Shown here: one piece after another, positions 734-52,808 of the stretch
How the letters are laid out: each line of letters begins with the position of its first letter
Position numbering within the stretch: position 1 is the stretch's first letter
Assembly (NCBI RefSeq): GCF_937859865.1
Contig: NZ_CALMAT010000079.1
Coordinates: 1-55,476, forward strand
Reading direction: 5' to 3'
DNA length: 55,476 bases
Source: an uncultured Mucilaginibacter sp.
GTDB lineage: Bacteria > Bacteroidota > Bacteroidia > Sphingobacteriales > Sphingobacteriaceae
The notes under the pieces: model-generated
What the model saw: the letters and a program-made list of their open reading frames with translations, nothing else
Told to the model about the DNA's origin: nothing
The model's database searches: none
Program-made: the position numbers and the translations under genes

Positions 734-2491
734 TTAGCTGTTCATGCTGATTAAAAATTCTTCGTTGGATTTTGTCCCGCGGATTTGGCCTTGTAAAAAC
801 TCCATCGCTTCCTGCGAGTTCATATCGGCTAAATGATTTCGTAAAATCCAAACGCGTTGTAAGGTTTCTTTATCTAACAATAAATCATCACGGCGTGTGC
901 TGGAAGCCGTAAGGTCAATGGCAGGGAAAATCCTTTTGTTGGACAATTTACGGTCGAGCTGTAGCTCCATGTTGCCGGTTCCTTTAAATTCTTCAAAGAT
1001 CACCTCGTCCATTTTAGAACCGGTATCAATTAAAGCCGTTGCAATAATGGTTAAACTTCCGCCGTCTTCAATATTTCGCGCAGCGCCAAAAAAGCGTTTT
1101 GGTTTGTGCAAAGCATTGGCATCAACACCGCCGGAAAGTATTTTGCCGGAAGCAGGCGCAACCGTATTGTAAGCACGTGCCAAACGGGTAATTGAATCTA
1201 ACAGAATCACCACATCGTGTCCGCATTCGACCATGCGTTTTGCCTTTTCCATCACAATATTGGCGATTTTTACATGGCGTTCTGCGGGTTCGTCAAAAGT
1301 AGAAGAAACCACTTCGGCACGAACGCTACGGGCCATATCGGTAACTTCTTCCGGGCGTTCGTCAATCAATAAAATGATCAGATAAACTTCTGGATGGTTT
1401 TTGGCAATAGCATTCGCCACATCTTTTAACAAACTTGTTTTCCCGGTTTTTGGCTGGGCAACAATCAAACCGCGCTGGCCTTTACCAATCGGCGTAAACA
1501 AATCAATAATGCGGGTAGAATAATTGCTGGCTTCCGAAAACAAGTTCAACCGTTCCTGCGGGAACAAAGGCGTTAAAAAATCGAAAGGAACACGGTCGCG
1601 CACTTCAGAAGGAATGCGTCCGTTGATCGCTTCCACCCGAACCAATGGAAAATATTTTTCGCCTTCTTTTGGTGGACGGATGCTTCCGCGAACGGTATCA
1701 CCAGTTTTTAAACCAAACAATTTAATTTGCGATTGTGACACATAAATATCATCCGGGGAAGACAGGTAGTTATAATCGGATGAACGCAGAAAACCGTAAC
1801 CATCGGCCATAATTTCCAACACGCCTTCGTTTACAATTACGTTATCAAAATCCAGGTTTATCGCTGGTTCTGCATGTTTGTTCGGCAAATTGCTGGTGTT
1901 GGTTTGCGGCTGGTTGTTCTGGTTTCCGTTGTTCTGGTTTCCGTTGTTTTGATTGTTGTTGTTCTGGTTGCCGTTGTTGTTATAACGCTTCTCAAATTTA
2001 GGCTGCCGGTTATCTGTTTGTGGTTCAGGATAACGGCGAACCGGCTCGGCAGTAGGGCTTGGTGCAGATGAAGCCGGAACATATCGAGGCATTTGGCCGT
2101 CTTGCTGTTCAGTTCTCGCTTGAACAGGTTCTGCGTTAGGAAAAGCAATTTCTGCAACGGCACCTGCGCTGCTGTCTTTAGCAACTTTAAGTGTCCGGGT
2201 CCTTTTCCGTGGTTTATCGTCTGCCGTTTCAGATTCGGTAGTGGCGGCGGCAGGCGTTTCTGCTGTATTTGTAGCTGCCTGGGCAGGTATTTCTGCAACG
2301 GCCGGCGCAGCTTCTGCCGCTTTTGGCTTTCTGCCGGGTTTGGCTTTTTCGGGCACTGGCTGTTGTTTTTTGCTGATTTCGGTGATCAAGTCCTGTTTGC
2401 GTAAATCTTCTGCCTGGGCAATGCCCATCGTTTTGGCTATTTCACGCAACTCAGATACGAGCTTGTCGTTCAGTTCGGAGGTATTAAACAT
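734..2491 (-). CDS. rho: Transcription termination factor Rho with long low-complexity insertion
   Basis: RNA-dependent hexameric ATPase that ends transcription. The 585-residue product starts with a Rho N-terminal helical domain (about 1-45). A Pro/Ala-rich stretch and an Asn-rich tract follow (about 170-205, runs such as [13 protein letters not shown]). Next comes the cold-shock-like RNA-binding domain (about 220-290, [16 protein letters not shown]). The RecA-like motor carries Walker [10 protein letters not shown] near 345-353, Walker [17 protein letters not shown] near 424-440 and the secondary-channel segment [21 protein letters not shown]. coli Rho has about 420 residues; the extra length is the disordered insertion, which is typical of Bacteroidota. 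The tract is an in-frame tandem array of Asn/Gln codons and may vary in length between strains. The start ATG at 2491 gives the canonical [16 protein letters not shown]. Confidence 0.97.
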
Positions 2492-2700
2492 GCGAAGGAA
2501 TAATAATGTATTATCTTTTTAACTTAAGATTAAATGGTAGCTGTAATTTTTTCTGTGCTGATGCCGTACATCTCAGTTTTTACACTGATAAAAACCATTG
2601 GAGAATGATCTGCTATTTTGAAATGCAGGAAAACCGTCAGGAAAACGATGCAATTCTAAATAATAATTCTAACTAATCAAACTATTTGTGCAAAAAATTT

Positions 2701-2726
2701 ATGCTACTGTTTTTATCGGCATAAAT
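2701..2726 (+). repeat. Variant copy of the dispersed motif upstream of pyrF
   Basis: The sister word of the dispersed motif appears with one change (CTACTGTTTTTA) and is followed by the usual tail (TCGGCATAAATT). It lies about 30 bases upstream of the pyrF start. Confidence 0.5.
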
Positions 2727-2756
2727 TGTTTATTTTGAATCACCTAAAATAAAAAA

Positions 2757-3596
2757 ATGTTCTCCAAACAGCAATTGATTGATTCCATCCGCCAAAAAAA
2801 ATCTTTTTTATGCATTGGTTTAGATACCGACCCCGAAAAAATACCTGCCTTTTTGCACAGTTTCCCAAACCCGGTGCTGGAATTTAACCGCCGTATCATT
2901 GATGCCACGCACGATCTGTGCATCGCCTACAAACCCAACACTGCTTTTTACGAATGTTATGGTGCAAAAGGTTGGCAAAATTTAATTGATACCTGCAATT
3001 ATATTCCTGCTGCCAATTTTAAAATTGCCGATGCCAAACGCGGCGACTTGGGCAACACGGCCGAAATGTATGCCAAAGCTTTTTTCAACAAAGCAATATC
3101 GGGGATGGAGTTTGATGCCGTTACGGTTGCGCCTTACATGGGCAGCGATTCGGTGATGCCTTTTTTACAGCATAAAAATAAGTGGGCCATTTTGCTGGCA
3201 CTTACCTCCAACCAAAGCCATCAGGATTTCCAGTTGATGGAAAACGAAGATGGCACTTTGTTTGAACAGGTTTTGCAAAAATCACAAGCTTGGGGAAACC
3301 CGGAACAGATGATGTATGTAGTTGGTGCTACGCGGGGCGAAGCTTTTTTAAAGATTAGAAAAATCGTTCCGAACCATTTTTTACTGGTTCCAGGAGTTGG
3401 GGCGCAAGGCGGAAGTTTGGAAGAAGTTTGCAAATATGGAATGAATGCAGATTGCGGTCTGATCGTAAATTCTTCCCGCGCAATTATTTATGCATCTGAT
3501 GGCCGTGATTTTGCAGAAGCTGCCCGGGCCGAAGCTTTACAAATTCAACAAACCATGAAAACGGAACTGGAAAAACACGGCTTTTTGGAACAATAA
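2757..3596 (+). CDS. pyrF: Orotidine 5'-phosphate decarboxylase, long (type 2) form
   Basis: Decarboxylates OMP to UMP, the last step of de novo pyrimidine synthesis, in the cytosol. The product has 279 residues, the length of the type 2 PyrF family rather than the ~230-240 of the E. coli type. The catalytic Asp/Lys segment [11 protein letters not shown] is at about residues 90-100. The substrate-binding regions [11 protein letters not shown] (near 20) and [15 protein letters not shown] (near 210), and the phosphate-binding end [12 protein letters not shown], are all intact. It begins with ATG at 2757 after an A-rich leader, with variant motif copy CTACTGTTTTTA just upstream. It stands alone, transcribed away from rho, and is followed by an inverted pair of motif copies. 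Confidence 0.95.
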
Positions 3597-3648
3597 AATT
3601 TTTTGTTTGATGGTTTAAGGCTTGTTTGATTTTTTTAAAATAATTCTG

Positions 3649-3660
3649 ATGCTTCTTTTA
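3649..3660 (+). repeat. Dispersed 12-mer (ATGCTTCTTTTA), with tail
   Basis: Exact core, followed by CCGCATAAAAATC. The flanks TGAT and ATCA are complementary. It forms an inverted pair with 3728-3739. Confidence 0.85.
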
Positions 3661-3727
3661 CCGCATAAAAATCATTGCCTTTTTGTGGTTTCTAAAACAA
3701 TTTATTTCAACACCAAATTTATAGGCA

Positions 3728-3739
3728 TAAAAGAAGCAT
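3728..3739 (-). repeat. Dispersed 12-mer, reverse copy
   Basis: Exact TAAAAGAAGCAT, inverted partner of 3649-3660. The tail on the minus strand reads TGCCTATAAATTTGG. Confidence 0.85.
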
Positions 3740-3799
3740 CAACATATTTTAGTGTATCAATTTAAACAGGCCGTAACATTGAGGCAAAATTTAAGGTGA

Positions 3800-18467: not shown

Positions 18468-18479
18468 ATGCTTCTTTTA
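18468..18479 (+). repeat. Dispersed 12-mer with CCAAT/ATTGG flanks
   Basis: Exact core with tail CCCTATAAAAATTGG. CCAAT before and ATTGG after are complementary. It is an inverted pair with 18544-18555. Confidence 0.88.
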
Positions 18480-18543
18480 CCCTATAAAAATTGGTGCCTG
18501 TTTCAATTTAAATAAAACCGGGTGTTTACCAATTTTTAGGCGA

Positions 18544-18555
18544 TAAAAGAAGCAT
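18544..18555 (-). repeat. Dispersed 12-mer, reverse copy with TACCAAT/ATTGGTA flanks
   Basis: Exact TAAAAGAAGCAT. The flanking seven bases on each side of the core-plus-tail unit are perfectly complementary (TACCAAT and ATTGGTA). Confidence 0.88.
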
Positions 18556-22442: not shown

Positions 22443-22845
22443 ATCATCTTTGACAAAAAACGGGTTTGTTTACTTCATACCAACACCTACGAAAATAAAG
22501 TCAGCCCGGCCTTGTTGTTTTAACGCAATATTTTCAGTACATATTATTGGCCACAACGTTATTAAATCTTAACCAATACCAACAGTTTACCAACAGCAAC
22601 GGATAAGCCGAAGTTTACGGTTTTAGCAGGATAAAACAACATTTTTGGTTTAAAAATTCAGGCTGATCGGTTTCAACTAATATACACACGTTATCAATTT
22701 TTTCCGCTGTTTTCAGCATTAAAAATACAAACATTTTATTTAAGTTGAGGGGAGGTGAATCGGATAGCTAAATTGATTTTTGATTTACGGTTTATACTAT
22801 TATAAGGATGGGAAATTTTAGATGCTTCTTTTATCGGCATAAATT
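22443..22845. other. Upstream region of the PKD gene
   Basis: About 400 AT-rich bases with no credible ORF. It presumably carries the PKD-gene promoter. A motif copy lies at its far end (22822-22833). Confidence 0.4.
22822..22833 (+). repeat. Dispersed 12-mer after the DinB relic
   Basis: Exact core with the consensus tail TCGGCATAAATTT, at the 3' end of the DinB pseudogene. Confidence 0.85.
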
Positions 22846-23105
22846 TCAACTGGCTGGGTTTTGCCTGACATAAAAAATATAATCAGTTGGCGGCAACATT
22901 TCAACTCCCGCCAGTTTTAAATGTTGCCCAATTTGCGCGCGGTAATGTGTACCATGATTTAGCACATGGGTTACAATTTCGCTGATTGTATTTTCATATT
23001 GGTTGCCGGTAGAATTTGTATAATGGATAGTTGCATCCAAATCAGTAACGCCGTTAACAAATGCTGGCGGTCGTAATTAAACAGTTGTGTAAAATAAGTT
23101 TTCAT
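22846..23105 (-). pseudogene. DinB-family protein relic (internal deletion and frameshift)
   Basis: Two pieces of a DinB-like four-helix metalloprotein remain. The start at 23105 reads MKTYFTQLFNYDRQHLLTAL, a normal DinB N-terminus. After about 23 codons the frame breaks, and the C-terminal part continues in another frame to 22846. That part has the conserved IHYTNSTGNQYENTISEIV, the helix HVLNHGTHYRAQIGQHL with metal-ligand His residues, and PPTDYIFYVR. Intact members have about 150-165 residues; some 70 in the middle, including the first His ligand, are missing. It is therefore a dead gene rather than a short functional one. Confidence 0.75.
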
Positions 23106-28578: not shown

Positions 28579-30804
28579 ATGCAATTTCAATATCCAAAAG
28601 CTGTCGGCTTAAATATTTTCAAAAAAGCACAAATGCTGTTTTTACCGGCCTTTTTTTGGTGCGGAACCCAAGTGATGGCGCAGGCAAAAGTGATTGTGAT
28701 CGAATCTCTGCATAATGCCATCGCTTTAGAAGTTCGTGCCGATAAACGGGTTGGCCTAATTTACTTCGGAACAAAACTGGCCGACCGCAATGAGTACCAA
28801 AAAATTTCACCAGCACGCAGGCAAAGCGAAGATTATTCGGGGATTTTAAATTCGGCTTATACGCCAGCCGGTTCCCGCAATTTGGTAGAGCCGGCCATCG
28901 AAGTTACGCAAGCGGATGGCAACAACTCGCTGGATTTGCAATATGTAAGCGACCAAACGCAGCAGTTAGATCGCCATGTTTCCTTAACCAGCATCGTTTT
29001 AAAAGATCCGGTTTATGCTTTCCAGGTTATGTTGTATTATAAAGTTTATGCGGATGATGATGTGGTAGAGCAATGGTCGGTCATCAAACACACTGAAAAA
29101 AAGAACGTTACGCTGCAAAAGTTTGCTTCGGCCAACTTGTATTTCAGCTCAAATTCTTACTGGTTAAAACAGTACCACGGCGATTGGGCGCGCGAAATGC
29201 AACCGCAGGAAGCAGAACTGACGGCCGGAATTAAAGTGCTGGACAGCAAATTAGGGACGCGGGCCGATTTGTACCAGCCGCCGTCGTTTATGGTTTCTTT
29301 TGATCAAGCGGCAAGCGAAGATGAAGGAAAAGTATTGCTGGGTTCGTTGGAATGGTCGGGCAATTTTAAGATTGATTTGGAAGTTGACCCGATAAAAAAT
29401 TTGAGGTTGATTGCCGGCATAAATCCGTATGCTTCGGCCTACAGTTTAAAACCGAATGAAGAATTTAAAACGCCGGCCTTTGTTTATACTTATTCTGAGC
29501 ATGGAAAAGGAAATGCCAGCCGCAACTTGCAACGCTGGGCGCGGGACTACAAAATTGTAGATGGAAACGGCCCAAGGTTAACCATTTTGAACAATTGGGA
29601 ATCTACATATTTTGATTTTAACGAACCCAAACTTGCTGCTTTATTAAAAGATACCAAAAAACTTGGAACAGATGTTTTTTTGTTGGACGACGGCTGGTTT
29701 GGCAATAAATATCCAAGAAATGATGACCGTGCAGGTTTGGGCGACTGGCAGGAAAACAAAGCCAAACTGCCAAACGGAATTGGATATTTGGTGAAAGAGG
29801 CACAAGCTAACAGTGTAAAGTTTGGCATTTGGGTAGAGCCGGAAATGGTAAACCCAAAAAGCGAACTGTACGAGAAGCATCCGGATTGGGTGATCAAACA
29901 ACCCAACCGTGAAGAATATTACTTTCGCAACCAACTGGTTTTGGATCTGAGCAACCCAAAAGTGCAGGGTTTTGTGTTTGGTATCTTGGATAATTTGTTC
30001 ACCAAAAACCCCAAACTTGGATTTGTAAAATGGGACTGCAATTCGGTTATCTACAATGCATATTCAACTTACGAAAAAAACCAGTCGCATTTATACATTG
30101 ATTATGTAAAAGGTTTGTACAGCGTGTTAGAGCGGTTGCGTGCCAAATACCCAAAAGTGCCGATGATGTTGTGTTCCGGCGGCGGCGGAAGGGTAGATTA
30201 TGGCGCGTTAAAATACTTTACCGAGTATTGGCCAAGTGATAACACCGACCCGTTGGAGCGTATTTTTATCCAGTGGGAATATTCTTACTTTTTTCCGGCC
30301 ATTGCTTCGGACAACCACGTTACCGATTGGAGCAAAGCACCAATCAAGTTCCGCACAGACGTGGCGATGATGGGCAAATTGGGTTTTGATTTAATTGTAA
30401 GCAAACTGAACGAAAAAGACCTGCAATTTTGCCAGCAGGCCATCCAAACGTACCAAGGTTTTAGCGATGTGGTTTGGCACGGCGATCAATATCGGTTGTT
30501 AAGTCCGTGGAAGAATGATTTGGCCTCGATCCAATACTTAAAAACCGACAAAAGCAAAGCCATTGTTTTTAATTACTTGGTAAGCAACCGTTACGATGCC
30601 GGCAGTAAATTGCCCATCCAATTAAAAGGTTTGGATGCCAACAAAAATTACTTGGTAAAAGAAGTAAACTTGTATCCGGGAACCAGATCTGCAATCCAAG
30701 ACGATGCTGTTTTTACCGGTGATTATTTGATAAAAGTTGGGATTAACCCGGTTGTGAATGCGGGAAGGGCGAGTGTTATTTTGGAAGTGGATGAGGTGAG
30801 GTAA
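28579..30804 (+). CDS. GH36 alpha-galactosidase, secreted
   Basis: Glycosidase of 741 residues that would remove alpha-galactose from raffinose-type sugars or galactomannan. A signal-like segment ends near residue 36 (MLFLPAFFWCGTQVMAQ). An N-terminal beta domain is followed by the TIM barrel. The catalytic nucleophile is D486 in FVKWDCNSV and the acid/base D554 in YWPSDNTDPLERI; LLDDGWFG and CSGGGGRVDYG are family signatures. A C-terminal beta domain ends VILEVDEVR. The 3' end of this gene is duplicated at 31863-32120. Start at ATG 28579. It is a single gene, probably periplasmic. Confidence 0.93.
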   Translation: MQFQYPKAVGLNIFKKAQMLFLPAFFWCGTQVMAQAKVIVIESLHNAIALEVRADKRVGLIYFGTKLADRNEYQKISPARRQSEDYSGILNSAYTPAGSRNLVEPAIEVTQADGNNSLDLQYVSDQTQQLDRHVSLTSIVLKDPVYAFQVMLYYKVYADDDVVEQWSVIKHTEKKNVTLQKFASANLYFSSNSYWLKQYHGDWAREMQPQEAELTAGIKVLDSKLGTRADLYQPPSFMVSFDQAASEDEGKVLLGSLEWSGNFKIDLEVDPIKNLRLIAGINPYASAYSLKPNEEFKTPAFVYTYSEHGKGNASRNLQRWARDYKIVDGNGPRLTILNNWESTYFDFNEPKLAALLKDTKKLGTDVFLLDDGWFGNKYPRNDDRAGLGDWQENKAKLPNGIGYLVKEAQANSVKFGIWVEPEMVNPKSELYEKHPDWVIKQPNREEYYFRNQLVLDLSNPKVQGFVFGILDNLFTKNPKLGFVKWDCNSVIYNAYSTYEKNQSHLYIDYVKGLYSVLERLRAKYPKVPMMLCSGGGGRVDYGALKYFTEYWPSDNTDPLERIFIQWEYSYFFPAIASDNHVTDWSKAPIKFRTDVAMMGKLGFDLIVSKLNEKDLQFCQQAIQTYQGFSDVVWHGDQYRLLSPWKNDLASIQYLKTDKSKAIVFNYLVSNRYDAGSKLPIQLKGLDANKNYLVKEVNLYPGTRSAIQDDAVFTGDYLIKVGINPVVNAGRASVILEVDEVR

Positions 30805-31862: not shown

Positions 31863-32120
31863 TTGATTTGCAAATATTTGCTGTTTAATTATCTTACCGG
31901 CAACCACTATAAAACTGACAGTTATATACTTGTTCTGTTAAACAGACTTGAACTTGACAAGAAGTATATTGTAAAAGAAGTAAACTTGTACCGGGAAATC
32001 AAATCTCCAATCCAACACAATGCTGTTTTTACCGGTAATTTTTTAATGAAAGTTGGGATTAACCCGGTTGTAAATGCGGGAAGGGCAAGTGTTATTTTGG
32101 AGGTTGATGAGGTGAGGTAG
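31863..32120 (+). pseudogene. Duplicated 3' end of the GH36 alpha-galactosidase
   Basis: An open frame of 85 residues without a normal start (TTG at 31863) whose translation matches the last ~85 residues of the GH36 enzyme. FNYLTGNHY corresponds to FNYLVSNRY, YIVKEVNLY to YLVKEVNLY, and both end VGINPVVNAGRASVILEVDEVR apart from small changes upstream. Nucleotide similarity is highest over the last 100 bases. It is either the remnant of a second GH36 gene or a partial duplication formed when the intervening genes were inserted. Confidence 0.8.
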
Positions 32121-34776: not shown

Positions 34777-34860
34777 CAACTTTTATTTTAATATTTTACT
34801 TAAGTTCCAACTGACCATCAAAATTTAGCCGGTAAAAGAAGCATCAACATTTGTTTATAA
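34777..34860 (+). repeat. 84-bp direct repeat, left copy
   Basis: Begins CAACTTTTATTTTA and ends AACATTTGTTTATAA. It matches 36836-36919 with five differences by eye. It contains an exact 12-mer copy at 34833-34844 and lies just after the methyltransferase gene. Confidence 0.88.
34833..34844 (-). repeat. Dispersed 12-mer in the left direct repeat
   Basis: Exact TAAAAGAAGCAT, preceded by AAATTTAGCCGG. Confidence 0.85.
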
Positions 34861-39588: not shown

Positions 39589-39666
39589 ATGTTTGAAACT
39601 TTCTTAAGTACAGCACCTGTCGTCCTCGGTCCGGCTTATGGTTTAACCTTTTATAAGGTTGTATGA
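39589..39666 (+). CDS. 25-codon leader ORF overlapping the adhesin start
   Basis: Begins MFETFLSTAPVV and ends TFYKVV. Its stop TGA (39664-39666) overlaps the ATG of the 2495-residue adhesin (39663-39665) in the order ATGA, a layout that usually means translational coupling. A strong Shine-Dalgarno precedes it, whereas the adhesin start has no obvious one. It is too short for a fold. I read it as a translated leader that delivers ribosomes to the adhesin start; it could instead be the start of an alternative control switch. Function is inference. Confidence 0.6.
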   Translation: MFETFLSTAPVVLGPAYGLTFYKVV

Positions 39667-42600
39667 GAAGGTTTTTACTGTTAGTTGCTTTTATTATAGC
39701 TTATGCTGTATCAACAAAAGCACAAGTACCAACTATTAACGTTGATTTGTCTTCTTCAAATATCCCATGGACTTACTATTCGGCAAGAGGCGGATATCTT
39801 TGTAGTGACAATACAACTACTAAATGTATTATTTTTAACATCACCCTAAACCCTAATACAAACCTTTTAAATTTTACTGCAGACCAATTAACCGGAGCAA
39901 GTTTTTACACCGTAACTTATCCAGGGGATCAAATTTGCGGTAGTCATCTTTATCCGATTGGCACAGCAGCCTGTATCACGCCTAATTCAACCAATGTCAT
40001 TATTTCTTTTTGTAAGCCAGGCGGCAATGCTGTAAATTATACCATAACGGCATCGTCAACCGTTACTGCTTCCGGCCCCGGAACGCTTAGGCAAGGTTGT
40101 ACCGGTGCAATGACGGTAACTGGTTTAAACACTTCTGGTTTAACATGGACATCCGTTTATCCTGGTGCTGCCGGAACTTATAATGCTTATTTAAGTTGTA
40201 CTTCGGGTTGCACAACCACTTATGTTACGCCGGCAATAGGGGCGCCGCCTTATATTGATTATCAGGTTTCGGGCACTACTACTGCTACAAACTGTGTTCA
40301 AAGTAAAACTGCTGTGGTGCGTGTTTATACCTTTCCACCGCTTAACGTAACAATCAATCCTGCAAGTGCTGTGATTTGTAACGGAAACCCGGTTACTTTG
40401 GCCGCAAACGTTACCGGTGGAAACCCCGCTTATACTTATTCCTGGGCGAAAGACGGGCAGTCAATTTCGCAGACCACTTCTTCCATTACCGTTTCTGCAG
40501 CAGGCAATTATACCGTTACCGTTGCCGATCAAATTCCGAACTGTCCTGCAGTTCCCCAATCCGTAGCGGTAACTGCTGCCCAAACCCCGCCTGTGCCAAC
40601 AGCCAGCAATGCCAGTACTTGCGCCAATAGCACGGCCACTTTAACCGCTACTGCGCCCGGCGGAAGCTATGAATGGTACAATGCTGCCACAGGCGGAACC
40701 CCGCAGGGAACAGGTGCCACATTTACTACGCCCGCGCTTACGGCAAATACCACTTACTATGTACAAACTACCCTAAATGGTTGTACCAGCGCGCGTACAC
40801 CGGTTACGGTAACCGTTAATCAGGTTCCAAACGCACCAACAGCTTCCGGAACAACTATTTGCAGCGGTAGCCAGGCAACATTAACCGCAAGCGGCTCAAC
40901 CGGAAGTTACCAATGGTTTGATGCAGCAACCGGTGGAAATTTGCTTCCCGCTAACGGTGCTTCTTTTACCACGCCGGTTTTACAAAACACCACTACCTAC
41001 TATGTGCAAACTACGGTTAACGGTTGTACCAGTACGCGCACCTCAGTTACGGTTACGGTAAACCAAACGCCAGATGCGCCAACGGCAGCAGGAATCAATA
41101 TTTGCAGCGGCGGCACAGCAACTTTAACTGCAACGGCACCCGGCGGAAGTTACCAGTGGTTTGATGTACCTTCGGGTGGCGTGCCGCTTCCTGGCAATGC
41201 TTCTTTTACCACATCTTTTTTAACCTCTACCAAAACATATTATGTGCAAACAACGGTTAACAATTGCACCAGTGCGCGTACCCCGGTTACGGTTACCGTT
41301 ACACCAATTCCGGATGCACCAACTGTTAGCAACACATCAGTTTGTAGCGGTAGCCGGGCAACATTAACAGCCAGCGGCTCGACGGGGAGTTATGCGTGGT
41401 TTGATGTTGCTTCGGGCGGAACACCACTATCCGGCAATGCTTCTTTTACCACCTCAAATTTATCAAGCACAACTAATTATTACGTGCAAACTACGGTAAA
41501 TGGTTGTACCAGTTCGCGTACGGCAGTTACGGTAACGGTCAATCAAATTCCTGCTGCGCCAACTGCATCAGGAACAACAATTTGCAGTGGAAACCCGGCT
41601 ACGCTAACCGCAACCGCTCCGGGTGGGACTTATAACTGGTATGCCGCTTCAACCGGTGGAACGCCGCTTGCAACCAATGCTTCTTTTATCACACAAAATT
41701 TAGCATCAACCACAACTTTTTATGTTGATGTTACTTCTGCCGATGGTTGTACCAGTACGCGTACGCCGGTTACGGTAACTGTCAACCAAATTCCGGCTGC
41801 GCCTACTGCTTCCGGAACAACCATTTGCAGCGGAAACCCGGCTACGCTAACCGCAACTGCCCCCGGCGGAACTTACAACTGGTATACCGCTTCAACCGGT
41901 GGAACGCCCCTTGCAACCAATGCTTCTTTTACCGCACAAAATTTAACATCTACCACCATTTTTTATGTTGATGTTACTTCTGCCGATGGTTGCGTAAGCT
42001 CGAGAACTCCGGTTACGGTAACAGTCAACCAAATTCCGGATGTGCCAACTGCTTCCGGAACAACGATTTGCAGTGGAAACCCGACCACTTTAACCGCAAC
42101 TGCCCCCGGCGGGACTTACAACTGGTATGCCGCTGCCTCAGGTGGAACGCCGCTTGCAACCAATGCTTCTTTTACCGCACTAAATTTATCAACCACAACT
42201 ACTTTTTATGTTGATGTTACTTCTGCCGATGGCTGCACCAGCCTGCGTACACCGGTTACGGTAACAGTTAATCAAATCCCTGCTGCGCCAAGTGTTTTTG
42301 GAACACCAGTTTGCAGCGGTAGCCAGACAACATTAACTGCAAGCGGTTCGAACGGGAGTTATGCGTGGTTTGATGCTGCTTCGGGTGGTAATTTACTGCC
42401 CGCAAGCGGTGCTTCTTTTACCACCCCAAATTTATCAAGCACAACTAATTATTACGTGCAAACTACGGTTAACGGTTGTACAAGTTCGAGAACTGCGGTT
42501 ACGGTAACGGTTAACCAAATGCCGGATGCGCCAACTGCATCAGGAACAACGATTTGCAGTGGAAACCCGGCCACTTTAACCGCAACTGCTTCCGGCGGAA

Positions 42601-45600
42601 CTTATAACTGGTATGCCGCTTCAACCGGTGGGACATCGCTTACAACCAATGCTTCTTTTACCATACAAAATCTTACCTCAACCACAACTTTTTATGTGGA
42701 TGTTACTTCTGCCGATGGTTGTGTAAGTCCGCGCACACCAGTTACGGTAACGGTTACACCGCCTACGGATCCGACTTTTCAGTATTCATCCAATACTTTT
42801 TGTAAAACGGGTGCCAATCCGGTTCCGGTTATTGCAAGTACTTCCGGTGGTACGTTTAGCGCATCAGCAGCCGGTTTGGTTTTTGCAGATAACCAAACAG
42901 GAGAGATTGATTTAAGTAGAAGTACACCTGGCACTTATACCGTTACTTTTGTTACCAACACCACTTGCGTTTATACCAGCAACACCACTGTTTCCATAAC
43001 GCCGGGCCCGGATGCAACTTTCAGTTATGGCGGGCCTTATTGCCAGCAGCAAAGTAATCCGCTGCCTACTTTTCCAACCAGTAGCAGTGCCGGAAGTTTT
43101 AGTTGCGCGGATGCCGATTTGGTTTTTGCCAGCAGCAGCACCGGCGAAATTAACTTGCAGCAAACCGTTCCGGGAACTTATACCGTGCGTAATGATATTA
43201 CTGCATCCGGCGGTTGTGCCGCTACGTTTGCTACCGGTACAATTACCATTAATCCGCTTCCGACGGTTAATGCCGGAATGGATAAAGTGGTTTGTTCGGG
43301 AGAAACTGTACCGCTAAACGGAACGATAGGCGGAGGGGCAAGCAGTGCAACCTGGTCTGGCGGAACGGGAACGTTTTCGGATGTTACATCGCTACAAACC
43401 GTATATACACCAGGCGCCGGGGAAACAAATGTTACGCTTTATTTAACAACGAATGATCCTGCCGGGCCGTGTGGTTTTGCTGTTGATGAAATTAAGATCA
43501 CGATTAACCCGACACCAGCCGTTACCAGTGATGCGAGTAATACGGTTTGCAACGAAACCGACCAAACTTATGTTATTAAAGGTAATGATGTTATCGGCAC
43601 AACTTTTAACTGGAGCAGGGCCGCGGTTGCCGGAATCAGTAATGCGGCAGTTAGCGGACAAACCAGCGCTGCAATCACGGAAAAGCTCATTAATACCACA
43701 CCATCACCAGTTGCGGTAACTTACACTATTGTTCCCGAAGCTAACAATTGTACGGGCTTGCCTTTTAATTATACTGTAAAGGTAAATCCAACACCTCATA
43801 TTTCTGTTTCCAACGAAGCTACGGGAACGGTTTGTAACGGCACTTCCCAGAATTATATACTTGCCGGTGATGTAGCCGGTACTACTGTTAAGTGGAGCCG
43901 CGCAGCCGTAAACGGCATCAGCAACGCAGCCGTGAGCAATCAAAGCAGTAATGTCATCAGCGAAGCTTTGATCAACACAACAAATGCGCCGGTTGCTGTC
44001 AACTATCTGATCGTTCCAACAGCTAATGGTTGTACCGGCCCGGCTTTTACTTATACCGTAACCGTAAATCCAACATTAACTATTAATAGTGCAGCAAGCG
44101 GGACTGTTTGCAGCGGGACGGCGCAAAACTATCTGATTAAGAGTGATGTAAACAACGCAACTTTTAGCTGGAGCAGAACTTCTGTAACCGGCATCAGCAA
44201 TCCGGCAGTTAGTGGAGAAAGCAGTGATAGGATCACCGAAAGCCTGGTCAATACAACATCAGCGCCTGTTGTGGTAACTTATACGATTATCCCAAGTATC
44301 AATGGCTGCGCTGGAGATCCATTTCAATATCAGGTTACGGTTAATCCGGTTGCTACCATTAGAAGTGTTTCAAACGGAACAAGTTGCAGCGGAACTGCGC
44401 AGGGTTATACCATCAAAAGTGATGTAAACGGAGCAACTTTTAACTGGAGCCGGGCAGCAGTAACCGGAATTAGCAATGCGGCGGTGAGCAATCAAAGCGG
44501 CAACAGCATTACCGAAGCTTTGATCAACACCACATCCGCTCCAATTGCCGTCAATTATTTAATCATTCCCGAAGCAAACAGTTGTACCGGCCCGGTTTTT
44601 ACTTATACCGTAACCGTAAACCCAACGCCTGCAATCAGCAATACTTCTTTTAGCCAGGTAATTTGTTCGGGAGAAACGTCGGTTCCGGTAACGCTGAATT
44701 CCAACATCAGCGGAACTACTTTTGCCTGGATCGCAACGGCTACAAACGGCATCAGCATCAATACAACCAGCGGAACGGATGTAATTCCCGCTCAAACGTT
44801 TACCAATCCTGGCACAACTGCCGCAACAATCACTTACACCGTTACGCCTTTGCATGATGGTTGTATTGGCGAAACTGCAACGTTTACCATCACCGTAAAC
44901 CCAAAACCCGCAACGCCTGTTTTAAGCAGCAATTCGCCGGTTTGTAGCGGAACGAGTTTGATGCTGAATACTGCCACCGTAGATAATGCAACTTACAACT
45001 GGACTGGCCCGAACGGTTTTACTTCTCATTTGCAAAACCCGGAAATAGCCAATGTTGCTTTGGCCTCACAAGGAAATTATACGTTGATAACCAGTGTAAA
45101 CGGTTGTTTGAGCGAGGATGGAACGATAGCTGTTGTTATCAATCCAACGCCTGCAGCTCCCGTAGCTTCCGGTAACGGACCGGTTTGTGCCGGCGAAAAG
45201 CTACAGTTATCAGCCAGCTTGATTTCGGGTGCAAGTTACAGTTGGACAGGGCCTAATAGTTTTACTTCTTCGCTTCAAAATCCGGTTATTGATCAGGCTA
45301 CCGTTGCCGCATCAGGCACTTATACCGTTAAAGCTATGGTTAACGGATGCGAAAGTGCGGCAGGAACAATTGCTGTTTTGGTCAACCCGATGCCGCTGAC
45401 CCCAACAGTAAGCAGTAACAGTCCGGTTTGCGCTACAACCAGCCTTTCCTTAACGGCATCAACGATTACAGGTGCAAGTTATCAATGGGCTGGGCCTAAC
45501 GGTTTCACTTCTTCCATCCAAAACCCGGTGATCCCGGCAGCTACACCTGCAAACGCTGGTACTTACAGTGTTCTGGCTACCGTTAACGGTTGTACAGCTC

Positions 45601-47150
45601 CTGTAGCGTCAATAGCAGTTGTGGTAAATGAATTGCCGGCACAACCTGTTTTGAGCAGTAACAGTCCGGTTTGTAGCGGCACTTCGATAGAAATCAATTG
45701 TAAATCTACTGATGGTGGTTTTTACAAATGGACTGGTCCAAACGGTTTTACCTCGACCCTGCAAAACCCTGTTCTTGCTAACGCAACTGCAGCAAACCAG
45801 GGCCGGTACACGGTTGTGATTACTACGCCGGGTTGCACGGTTGTTAATACTGCTTTTATCAACATAAAAGTGAACCAAACGCCTGATGCGCCGAGCGTAA
45901 GCAGTAACAGTCCGGTTTGCGCAGGGCAGAATATCAAACTGACTGCTGCAGCAATTGCAGGAGCAAGTTACCAATGGAAAGGGCCAAATGGGTTTACCTC
46001 TAACCTTCAAAATCCCGAAATTGCATCGGTAAACGAAGCACAAGCCGGCAAGTACAGTTTAACAGTAACCGTAAATGGTTGTACCAGCAATGCAGGCATT
46101 ACACAAGTAGCGGTCAACCAGCCGCCGGTAGTAACGGCGGGCGTAGATCAAACGGCTTGTGCCGGTAAACCAGTTGCCACGCTTTCGGGCAGTATCACGG
46201 GCAGCACCACAACCGGCAGTTGGACTACCAGCGGCAGCGGCACTTTTACAACCGGAAATACCAGTTTAAAAGGCATTTACCTTGCATCCGCAGCAGATAT
46301 TGCAAACGGAGGTGTTGTTTTAACCTTAACATCTACAAATACTGCGCCTTGTGCAGTCGCTTCGTCTTCCTTTAAGTTAAATATTATACCCTTTCCGGTT
46401 GTTGCTGCGGGAAAAGACCAGGAAGTTTGTATGGGTGATGTTGTTAATTTAAATGGTAAAGTAAGTAACGCCGAAGGCGGAACCTGGTCGAGTTCGGGCA
46501 CAGGCGTTTTCAATCCGTCTAAAACCAGTTTGGATGCCCGTTATATTCCGAGTGAGAAAGACAAGTTTGACAAAAGCTTCGTACTTACGCTAACATCTAC
46601 AGGCAATTGTGCACCTATTTCCAGTCAAATGAAAGTGCAGTTGGTCGAGCCGCCAAAAGTAGATGCCGGTGCAGATTTATATGTAATGCAAAACGAAAAA
46701 ATAGTTTTGCAACCGGCAGTAACCGGAACCGGGCTAACTTATTCCTGGGCACCGAACCAGCAACTAAGCGACAGTAAATCAAAAACACCTGTATTAACCG
46801 GTCAGGAAGATGCCACTTATACCTTAACCGTTACCGGGGCCGCCGGGTGCATTGCCCAAGACCAGGTTTCTATCAAAGTGCTCAAACCCATCAAAATACC
46901 AAACACGTTTACACCAAATGGCGATGGTATTAACGATACCTGGGCAATAAAAGAACTGGACAGCTATCCTGGTATCACCGTAAAAATTTTTAACCGTTAT
47001 GGTACCCAATTATTTTTTTCGGAAGGTTACGGCGTGCCTTGGAACGGAACTTACAATAATCAATTACTGCCTTTTGGTACTTATTATTATATCATTGATT
47101 TGAAAACCCACGGCAAACTGCTTTCCGGGCCGGTAACCATATTGCGGTAA
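39663..47150 (+). CDS. Giant repeat adhesin with T9SS type B sorting domain
   Basis: 2495 residues, exported by the signal peptide MRRFLLLVAFIIAYAVSTKAQ. After a unique N-terminal region come nine Ig-like repeats of about 80 residues (roughly residues 308-1035; unit start PTASGTTICSG, core YNWY-x-AS-x-GGTPL). Five PKD-like repeats follow (about 1280-1740; VCSGTAQ ... WSRAAVTGISNAAVS ... EALINTT), then five Ig-like units with the core WTGPNGFTSxLQNPxI. The end is the gliding-motility C-terminal domain (KIPNTFTPNGDGINDTW ... FGTYYYII) that directs secretion by the type 9 system and surface attachment. It probably mediates adhesion or gliding. The repeats are close enough in DNA sequence to recombine. 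Translation is probably coupled to the leader ORF. Confidence 0.93.
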   Translation: MRRFLLLVAFIIAYAVSTKAQVPTINVDLSSSNIPWTYYSARGGYLCSDNTTTKCIIFNITLNPNTNLLNFTADQLTGASFYTVTYPGDQICGSHLYPIGTAACITPNSTNVIISFCKPGGNAVNYTITASSTVTASGPGTLRQGCTGAMTVTGLNTSGLTWTSVYPGAAGTYNAYLSCTSGCTTTYVTPAIGAPPYIDYQVSGTTTATNCVQSKTAVVRVYTFPPLNVTINPASAVICNGNPVTLAANVTGGNPAYTYSWAKDGQSISQTTSSITVSAAGNYTVTVADQIPNCPAVPQSVAVTAAQTPPVPTASNASTCANSTATLTATAPGGSYEWYNAATGGTPQGTGATFTTPALTANTTYYVQTTLNGCTSARTPVTVTVNQVPNAPTASGTTICSGSQATLTASGSTGSYQWFDAATGGNLLPANGASFTTPVLQNTTTYYVQTTVNGCTSTRTSVTVTVNQTPDAPTAAGINICSGGTATLTATAPGGSYQWFDVPSGGVPLPGNASFTTSFLTSTKTYYVQTTVNNCTSARTPVTVTVTPIPDAPTVSNTSVCSGSRATLTASGSTGSYAWFDVASGGTPLSGNASFTTSNLSSTTNYYVQTTVNGCTSSRTAVTVTVNQIPAAPTASGTTICSGNPATLTATAPGGTYNWYAASTGGTPLATNASFITQNLASTTTFYVDVTSADGCTSTRTPVTVTVNQIPAAPTASGTTICSGNPATLTATAPGGTYNWYTASTGGTPLATNASFTAQNLTSTTIFYVDVTSADGCVSSRTPVTVTVNQIPDVPTASGTTICSGNPTTLTATAPGGTYNWYAAASGGTPLATNASFTALNLSTTTTFYVDVTSADGCTSLRTPVTVTVNQIPAAPSVFGTPVCSGSQTTLTASGSNGSYAWFDAASGGNLLPASGASFTTPNLSSTTNYYVQTTVNGCTSSRTAVTVTVNQMPDAPTASGTTICSGNPATLTATASGGTYNWYAASTGGTSLTTNASFTIQNLTSTTTFYVDVTSADGCVSPRTPVTVTVTPPTDPTFQYSSNTFCKTGANPVPVIASTSGGTFSASAAGLVFADNQTGEIDLSRSTPGTYTVTFVTNTTCVYTSNTTVSITPGPDATFSYGGPYCQQQSNPLPTFPTSSSAGSFSCADADLVFASSSTGEINLQQTVPGTYTVRNDITASGGCAATFATGTITINPLPTVNAGMDKVVCSGETVPLNGTIGGGASSATWSGGTGTFSDVTSLQTVYTPGAGETNVTLYLTTNDPAGPCGFAVDEIKITINPTPAVTSDASNTVCNETDQTYVIKGNDVIGTTFNWSRAAVAGISNAAVSGQTSAAITEKLINTTPSPVAVTYTIVPEANNCTGLPFNYTVKVNPTPHISVSNEATGTVCNGTSQNYILAGDVAGTTVKWSRAAVNGISNAAVSNQSSNVISEALINTTNAPVAVNYLIVPTANGCTGPAFTYTVTVNPTLTINSAASGTVCSGTAQNYLIKSDVNNATFSWSRTSVTGISNPAVSGESSDRITESLVNTTSAPVVVTYTIIPSINGCAGDPFQYQVTVNPVATIRSVSNGTSCSGTAQGYTIKSDVNGATFNWSRAAVTGISNAAVSNQSGNSITEALINTTSAPIAVNYLIIPEANSCTGPVFTYTVTVNPTPAISNTSFSQVICSGETSVPVTLNSNISGTTFAWIATATNGISINTTSGTDVIPAQTFTNPGTTAATITYTVTPLHDGCIGETATFTITVNPKPATPVLSSNSPVCSGTSLMLNTATVDNATYNWTGPNGFTSHLQNPEIANVALASQGNYTLITSVNGCLSEDGTIAVVINPTPAAPVASGNGPVCAGEKLQLSASLISGASYSWTGPNSFTSSLQNPVIDQATVAASGTYTVKAMVNGCESAAGTIAVLVNPMPLTPTVSSNSPVCATTSLSLTASTITGASYQWAGPNGFTSSIQNPVIPAATPANAGTYSVLATVNGCTAPVASIAVVVNELPAQPVLSSNSPVCSGTSIEINCKSTDGGFYKWTGPNGFTSTLQNPVLANATAANQGRYTVVITTPGCTVVNTAFINIKVNQTPDAPSVSSNSPVCAGQNIKLTAAAIAGASYQWKGPNGFTSNLQNPEIASVNEAQAGKYSLTVTVNGCTSNAGITQVAVNQPPVVTAGVDQTACAGKPVATLSGSITGSTTTGSWTTSGSGTFTTGNTSLKGIYLASAADIANGGVVLTLTSTNTAPCAVASSSFKLNIIPFPVVAAGKDQEVCMGDVVNLNGKVSNAEGGTWSSSGTGVFNPSKTSLDARYIPSEKDKFDKSFVLTLTSTGNCAPISSQMKVQLVEPPKVDAGADLYVMQNEKIVLQPAVTGTGLTYSWAPNQQLSDSKSKTPVLTGQEDATYTLTVTGAAGCIAQDQVSIKVLKPIKIPNTFTPNGDGINDTWAIKELDSYPGITVKIFNRYGTQLFFSEGYGVPWNGTYNNQLLPFGTYYYIIDLKTHGKLLSGPVTILR
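40581..42760 (+). repeat. Nine tandem ~240-bp repeats in the adhesin gene
   Basis: Each unit encodes one Ig-like domain. The exact 12-mer sits at the same place (encoding NASFT or NASFI) in six units: 41197, 41437, 41677, 41920, 42163 and 42649 (start positions). Two units (40957, 42409) carry GTGCTTCTTTTA. The periodic spacing of about 240 bases shows that these copies spread by unit duplication, so they should not be counted as independent insertions. Confidence 0.9.
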
Positions 47151-47227: not shown

Positions 47228-47239
47228 ATGCTTCTTTTA
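47228..47239 (+). repeat. Dispersed 12-mer after the adhesin
   Basis: Exact core with consensus tail CCGGCATAAAATC. Confidence 0.85.
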
Positions 47240-47418
47240 CCGGCATAAAATCAAGAAGGGTTGCGGCCGAAAACAAAAAAGCCCGCCTTAAACAGACGGG
47301 CAAGCACCGGCATAAAAATGCTACCTTAAAACGGATTTAGTTTTTAATAGCTAATCGGATAGACACCAATTTCTGCCCAGGTTCAGCCCCTTTTTGCTAT
47401 ATGGCAAAAAGATGACCA

Positions 47419-52089: not shown

Positions 52090-52145
52090 TGAAGAGGTAT
52101 CAGGTTTGAGGTTAAGAGGTAAAGGGTAGAAAGGTAGCCGCTATG

Positions 52146-52172
52146 CTTCCCCCTCAAGGGGGTCAGGGGGTT
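52146..52172. repeat. G/C-rich palindrome (CCCCCTC...GGGGG)
   Basis: CCCCCTCAAGGGGG followed by TCAGGGGGTT, a small hairpin of the G/C-rich type seen dispersed in Bacteroidota. It lies directly before a 12-mer copy, as at the tkt-rpiB junction. Confidence 0.55.
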
Positions 52173-52180
52173 AGCAAACA

Positions 52181-52192
52181 ATGCTTCTTTTA
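52181..52192 (+). repeat. Dispersed 12-mer before the DUF4230 gene
   Basis: Exact core, tail CCACCTAAAATTC, 16 bases before the ATG at 52209. Confidence 0.85.
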
Positions 52193-52208
52193 CCACCTAA
52201 AATTCATT

Positions 52209-52808
52209 ATGGCAAATACAAACACGGAAACCAACACGATCATCAAAACTTTAATCGGTTGGGTTATGGTGCTGGGCGTGCTGGCTTTTGGCTATTTTTA
52301 TTTTAAAGACAAGCTTTTTGCTTCCCGCAAGGAAATGAAAGAGGATGTGATGGTGCAGAAAATCACTTCGATGGGAAAACTGGAACTGGTAAAATATGCA
52401 ATGAAAGATGTGATCGAGCAAAAGGAAGTACGCACCATTTTGCCGGATAAACGCATTTTGTTTGTTGCCGTTGGCGAAGTTACCGGCTGTATTGATTTGA
52501 CCAAAGTTCAGAAAAAAGACATTGTTGCGGCAGGAGAAGATTCGGTTACCGTGTTTTTGCCGCAGCCGCAAATTTGTTACGTCAAGTTAGACCACCAGAA
52601 ATCGCAGGTTTATGATGTTTCGGGAACCTGGTTTCCAACCGATACAAAAGATATGGTCGAAGGCATTTACAAAATTGCCGAGCAGCGTTTGCTCAAAAAT
52701 GCTTCGGACATGCAGTTGCTGCAAAAAACAAAGCAAAATGCACTACTCATCTTTAAACCGTTGCTCCAGAATATTTCAGGGAAAAAAGTAGGTGTCATCT
52801 TCAGGTAA
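52209..52808 (+). CDS. DUF4230 family membrane-anchored protein
   Basis: 199 residues from ATG 52209 (MANTNTETNTIIKTLIGW); a longer frame begins upstream but runs through the G/C palindrome and the motif copy, so it is unlikely. One N-terminal membrane helix (LIGWVMVLGVLAFGYFYF) is followed by a basic stretch. The soluble DUF4230 domain has the family pattern ITSMGKLELVKYAMKDV ... RILFVAVGEVTGCIDLTKV ... VTVFLPQPQICYVKLD. The family is widespread but its function is unknown. It lies 63 bases upstream of the hexosaminidase, which has its own promoter-like sequence. Confidence 0.8.
   Translation: MANTNTETNTIIKTLIGWVMVLGVLAFGYFYFKDKLFASRKEMKEDVMVQKITSMGKLELVKYAMKDVIEQKEVRTILPDKRILFVAVGEVTGCIDLTKVQKKDIVAAGEDSVTVFLPQPQICYVKLDHQKSQVYDVSGTWFPTDTKDMVEGIYKIAEQRLLKNASDMQLLQKTKQNALLIFKPLLQNISGKKVGVIFR

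Follow-up and report, generated by a model that had tools for sequence, protein, structure and literature searches.

The 12-mer ATGCTTCTTTTA at position 3649 of the window (the whole 55,476-nucleotide stretch of DNA analysed here) is the core of a longer motif, ATRCT(TC/GT)TTTTA-YC-RSNN-W(5-7), in which a strict core is followed, one helical turn downstream, by a tract of A or T. Both core and tail are kept by evolution, even in genes. On sequence patterns, we favour the reading, at a probability of roughly 0.6, that the motif acts as a DNA uptake sequence like the Haemophilus USS, providing a self-recognition tag for natural transformation. The host, a relative of Mucilaginibacter arboris from soil, has a draft genome of 3.98 Mb of which the window is one contig (C79). 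Profiles given below come from samples of 371–613 kb of this genome, and genome-wide counts from pattern searches. Genes were called as the longest ORFs of at least 100 aa; with such calls, 'intergenic' may take in short genes, and 'coding' copies near ORF starts may precede the true start.

The core is abundant and restricted to one genus

A genome-wide pattern search found 2,114 exact copies of ATGCTTCTTTTA in the 3.98 Mb, 1,055 on the plus and 1,059 on the minus strand, against 2 occurrences of the reversed control in the same genome. The core, which is not palindromic, is present in all three genomes of its genus; the sister species (M. arboris HMF7410 and a lichen Sphingobacteriaceae MAG) contain 1,947 and 1,118 copies. 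It is at background level in other family members, with at most 9 copies in each of 34 genomes, and 23 genomes outside the family have at most 5 copies each. When named genomes were scanned for core plus tail, many of the matches listed came from the two sister species, and other organisms contributed one per record. A search of viral contigs for core plus tail gave no match, which is uninformative. Nineteen relatives in the family, sampled at 20 kb each, showed no other dialect of the motif, although a weaker one could have escaped.

Perfect cores outnumbered near-matches, 321 against 175 for all 36 single mismatches summed, and 84 of the latter were a single variant, ATACTTCTTTTA. A second core type, ATRCTGTTTTTA, occurs in 524 copies when YC follows, and is likewise genus-restricted. 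Both ATACTTCTTTTA and ATRCTGTTTTTA bear the same tail as ATGCTTCTTTTA.

A conserved A/T tract follows the core

The principal sites in the window are as follows.

3649..3660, plus strand: index core 12-mer, ATGCTTCTTTTA
3661..3664, plus strand: YC-RS link, CCGC, between index core and tail (0.3–1.4 bits per position, +12 to +15)
3667..3673, plus strand: index A/T tail tract, AAAAATC, +18 to +24, with unbroken A/T at +19 to +23
3715..3721, minus strand: A/T tail tract of the partner copy, tail TGCCTATAAATTTG
3728..3739, minus strand: partner core facing the index core (convergent, start-to-start 79)
18468..18555, no single strand: convergent pair with cores at 18468 (plus) and 18544 (minus), both A/T-tailed
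22822..22846, plus strand: single motif, tail TCGGCATAAATTT
28633..28657, plus strand: second core type, ATGCTGTTTTTA, with the same tail
47228..47252, plus strand: single motif, tail CCGGCATAAAATC
52181..52205, plus strand: motif, tail CCACCTAAAATTC, near the start of an ORF called at 52143..52808, whose true start may be downstream of the motif

A preliminary description of this DNA had proposed that the 12-mer continues into a conserved tail, and the five tails that it quoted are all present where it placed them. In an alignment of 144 intergenic copies (371 kb of genome), information does not drop to background after the 12-mer; it extends to about +28 and reaches background by about +30. 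The link contributes 0.59 bits at +12 (Y), 1.36 at +13 (C), 0.42 at +14 (R) and 0.34 at +15 (S), the tail 0.5–1.2 bits at +18 to +24 (0.6–1.2 at +19 to +23), and the profile ends in a weak RGTG of 0.35–0.48 bits at +25 to +28. In total, the core holds about 20 bits and the tail 8.5 bits. The tract had been written as TAAAA-AT; it is indeed conserved, but as A or T rather than as A only, its letters in intergenic singles being 52% A and 46% T. Its centre lies at +20.5 (sd 1.0), and that of the core T-run at 8.5 (W-run, 9.0), which places the two 11.5–12 bases apart. The spacing is about one helical turn, slightly more than the 11 bases originally given.

In 613 kb of genome, an unbroken run of five A/T bases (W5) occupies +19 to +23 in 93% of intergenic copies and in 81% of those within genes, compared with 17% and 9% respectively for other offsets; in the window, 49 of the 52 sites have one. 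In the sister species, the corresponding values are 86–87% and 77–81%, from counts that include some duplicates where the 8-kb loci partly overlap other sampled stretches. The tail is also carried by intergenic singles outside any pair. Because W5 follows so many coding copies, the earlier statement that the tail is lost in most copies inside genes was wrong. What survives of the contrast drawn between intergenic and coding copies is a difference in information, 5.4 against 3.4 bits over +18 to +24 in singles; the tail is weaker in genes, yet clearly there.

Evolutionary constraint and the shape of the tract

Coding copies were aligned by codon across the three species of the genus, the sites being picked by their core (≤ 2 mismatches) with tail positions unused. 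Because only the core was used in choosing sites, its conservation is partly conditioned by that choice and that of the tail is not. The tail (+19 to +23) diverged at 6.5% of bases and the flanks at 21–23%; changes between A/T and G/C amounted to 2.6% in the tail and about 25% in the flanks. There were 15 A–T swaps and 10 other changes in the tail, compared with 123 and 744 in the flanks (p = 3e-7; this p-value and the next are indicative only, because related species pairs share some sites). AT-rich codons alone are insufficient to account for this, since, in the same genes, the orthologue kept all-A/T in 97% of W5 tails and in only 57% of control W5 tracts. W-to-S changes per site were 0.9% in the tail and 11.8% in control W5 tracts (p = 4e-17).

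The steps within the tract bear on its likely shape. TpA steps number 0.36 per six-base tract in intergenic copies, compared with a genome W6 mean of 0.96, and ApT is common inside the tract. The mixture of A-type and T-type blocks puts both steps below the expectation from column shuffling, and it is the contrast between TpA and ApT that is informative. Exchange of A for T, together with avoidance of TpA, fits a rigid A-tract with a narrow minor groove more than a melting site. The earlier suggestion that bending or melting needs the tail can therefore be narrowed to a rigid A-tract, which fits both features better than easy melting does. The USS tracts of Haemophilus were likewise read as rigid, narrow-groove A-tracts from their predicted shape (PMC7811141).

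Coding copies come from point mutation

Intergenic DNA contained 147 of 202 copies, against ∼13% non-coding DNA, and about a third of sites (172 of 516) lay within ORFs. Coding copies are about equally sense (80) and antisense (92), and use five of the six reading frames, the sixth giving a stop. A polarity like that of Chi or KOPS was rejected, there being no clear orientation bias relative to gene direction.

Thirty-one coding sites could be aligned to family outgroups; the motif was absent from the outgroups in all of them, and in 28 the core aligned gap-free. It follows that coding copies arose by substitution: they come from point mutation, not insertion. Singles lost in a sister species mostly leave equal lengths (12/12, 38/38 and 16/16). 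Pairs inside the MITEs described below are the exception to an origin by point mutation.

One cluster of coding copies has a different history.

41197..42660, plus strand: in-frame copies (encoding NASFT) in ∼240-bp coding repeats of a 2,495-aa ORF

Most of the ∼240-bp repeats in this ORF (window 39663-47150) have the 12-mer in the same frame; these copies are not independent, because they were multiplied along with the protein repeat. A protein motif was rejected as the general cause, since the NASFT repeats cover this cluster only and five frames are used elsewhere. Similar stretches around motifs at 30656-30715 and 31972-32031 of the window, and at 34833 and 36892, suggest local duplications.

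Paired sites and a MITE family

Closely spaced inverted pairs of the motif occur. Convergent pairs are frequent at 75–86 bp start-to-start, with partly homologous interiors, and supply about a fifth of sites. Divergent and tight convergent pairs, at 10–32 bp, form hairpins with U-rich arms. At L032:17321-17434 (contig C3), two near-perfect palindromes of ∼44 bp adjoin, with facing cores 32 bp apart and a shared tail; similar units were seen in each of the three species.

The index motif (3649) and the copy that faces it (3728) sit in a MITE-like element; most sites do not. Neither this placement nor the second core with its shared tail had been noticed in the preliminary description.

3620..3771, no strand: MITE-like element, 152 bp, enclosing the index motif pair, with degenerate terminal inverted repeats
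3620..3633, plus strand: left terminal inverted repeat, GCTTGTTTGATTTT (family consensus GCCTGTTTAAATTT)
3758..3771, minus strand: right terminal inverted repeat, CAATTTAAACAGGC on the plus strand

Members of the family (this element, L256-L258 and others) are 145–160 bp long, with terminal inverted repeats (TIRs) GCCTGTTTAAATTT/AAATTTAAACAGGC and two facing motifs. Units with exact TIRs number 20 in this genome and one in each sister species, with none in seven family relatives. For four related units, the window copy not among them, the sister genomes are without 150–160 bp at the orthologous place. The flanks, read by eye, hint at a TTAA/TAA target-site duplication.

We favour the view that the MITE acquired the motif rather than seeded it, because substitution-derived coding copies are shared between species. 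Inheritance of the tail from the MITE was rejected, as singles and coding copies carry the tail, and as the tail swaps A for T. The MITE family may have captured a motif pair, which it may use for its spread; if the uptake reading is true, a MITE carrying the tag would be a mobile element that exploits the uptake code of its host.

Comparison with known repeat and uptake systems

The preliminary description had likened the motif to the Haemophilus USS, with its strict core and AT tract at helical spacing, and this comparison stands for almost all of the features that can be judged from sequence. The Pasteurellaceae USS has a core, AAGTGCGGT, and two AT-rich segments 12 positions apart (PMC1626085), a distance close to that between T-run and A/T tract here. 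In both, a strict core has AT-rich tracts on one side, perfect copies exceed near-matches, copies originate by point mutation and prefer intergenic DNA with many in genes, and inverted pairs and clade-specific variants occur (USS features from PMC1626085 and PMC7811141); the USS was shown not to be an insertion by the same kind of outgroup test (PMC1626085). The present motif differs in its core (ATGCTTCTTTTA/ATRCTGTTTTTA, not AAGTGCGGT or ACAAGCGGT), in the phylum of its host, in having a single outer AT tract where the USS has two, if the core T-run is left out of the count, in the failure to find type IV pilus proteins and in being carried by a MITE family. Given the different core and phylum, and with no type IV pilus found, we describe it as USS-like rather than as a USS proper.

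The Neisseriaceae DUS (ATGCCGTCTGAA, with ComP) likewise has a strict core of 12 bases, many copies, inverted pairs and dialects. However, it is without flanking AT motifs and has a type IV pilin as receptor, whereas no pilin was detected here, and the shared letters ATGC are no evidence of kinship. Published accounts treat uptake sequences as something particular to two proteobacterial families, both with type IV pili (PMC7811141; PMC5031613). In REPIN/REP sequences, too, short and mostly intergenic repeats form inverted doublets, in P. fluorescens preferentially 71 and 110 bp apart (PMC3116915); here, however, the core is non-palindromic, ORFs contain a third of the sites, and no repeat-flanked RAYT gene was detected.

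Riemerella (Flavobacteriia, likewise Bacteroidota) possesses the ComEC/DprA/HHH set and transforms naturally without pilus homologues, R. columbina preferring its own DNA (PMC8459023; PMC7965970). Unlike the motif here, its candidate k-mers are A-rich and at most 10 bases long, and no long strict motif has been reported. We found no strict uptake motif for Bacteroidota in the literature searched. The genome studied here encodes ComEC, DprA and HHH_3 proteins, including one with two HHH domains. ComEC, DprA and HHH proteins also occur in family members without the motif; because these genes do not track the motif, they permit the uptake reading rather than prove it. Profile searches of this genome, with positive controls, gave no N_methyl match (type IV pilin) and no T2SSE match (pilus/T2SS ATPase), the second result being firmer because the pilin model is short (27 residues). 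The genus yielded no match to DUF5689, the domain of one protein that acts in Riemerella transformation. A search for Tex (Tex_N, PF09371) gave matches in each of five other genomes of the family but in none of the three from this genus.

What the motif may do

Marks of this sort could also be left by a DNA-binding protein that is widespread on the chromosome, and the main rival to the uptake reading is a lineage-specific chromosome-organising or nucleoid protein that reads core and tail inside the cell, with selection keeping its sites. Nucleoid proteins typically target A-tracts, which the tail would suit, and such a protein would also agree with a constrained, strand-symmetric motif that is genus-wide and spread through the genome. 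Nevertheless, perfect copies outnumber near-matches, a strict consensus of a sort that is unlike internal binding sites (PMC1626085), and the ∼20 + 8.5 bits of the motif far exceed what 2,000–3,000 sites need. We therefore think this explanation unlikely. A role of the Chi or KOPS kind has in addition the lack of a clear orientation bias against it.

That the motif is a mobile repeat only, REPIN or MITE, with a tail shared by descent, seems to us very improbable. The convergent pairs with their partly homologous interiors, and the TIR units that are absent from orthologous places in the sisters and present in 20 exact copies here, are what such a repeat would produce. However, these pairs account for a minority of sites, whereas one and the same tail is found on singles and on coding copies, coding copies have a gap-free origin in all open frames, and the tail exchanges A and T without G/C; for coding copies the explanation is already contradicted. 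There is one IS200-like Y1 transposase (161 aa), none is of RAYT size, and it is not systematically flanked by the motif, so that a REPIN/RAYT origin was rejected as the whole explanation. A transcription terminator or other signal at the level of RNA has still less to recommend it and is hardly to be believed as the main function: the closely spaced pairs do give hairpins and most copies are intergenic, but most are also single and unable to form such a hairpin, coding copies are near-equally sense and antisense, and exchange of A for T in the tail would hardly be acceptable. USS pairs in H. influenzae double as terminators (PMC5217627); termination is probably a secondary role of the pairs here.

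Returning to the uptake reading, we infer that a candidate surface receptor would read the core tightly, and that the A/T tract one turn downstream would offer a rigid, slightly bent, narrow-groove shape that eases entry of the DNA. Fragments bearing the motif would be preferentially taken up and recombined, so that point mutations creating or improving it would accumulate throughout the genome by molecular drive. Because the lineage seems to be without type IV pili, receptor and outer-membrane step should belong to a pilus-less route, as in Riemerella. Tentatively, and at odds a little short of even, this might be a third uptake-sequence system that evolved on its own: it would belong to pilus-less Bacteroidota and combine a core with a shape-read A-tract, two coexisting core types and a MITE family that spreads by means of the tag pair it carries. 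If true, uptake sequences would have a third independent origin, in an apparently pilus-less lineage, and the motif would help to track down the receptor for DNA in the outer membrane of Bacteroidota, and would make it possible to ask directly whether pili are needed for such motifs to evolve. It might also find practical use in transforming relatives of Mucilaginibacter.

Distribution of sites along the genome

Core density is mostly 0.4–1.3 per kb across the genome. Uptake sequences would be expected to lie at somewhat more even distances than chance gives; here the sites appear to be at most slightly more regular than random placement predicts, with a CV of 0.79 against 0.875 (sd 0.058; P = 0.06), and gaps shorter than 600 bp make up 15.4% against 23.2% (sd 2.5%). 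Three motif deserts of 9–11 kb, considered as possible islands, were seen (L211:5594-17077, L049:1-9590 and L208:1968-11193); one is without an IS transposase (PF13612), and the other two have one inside.
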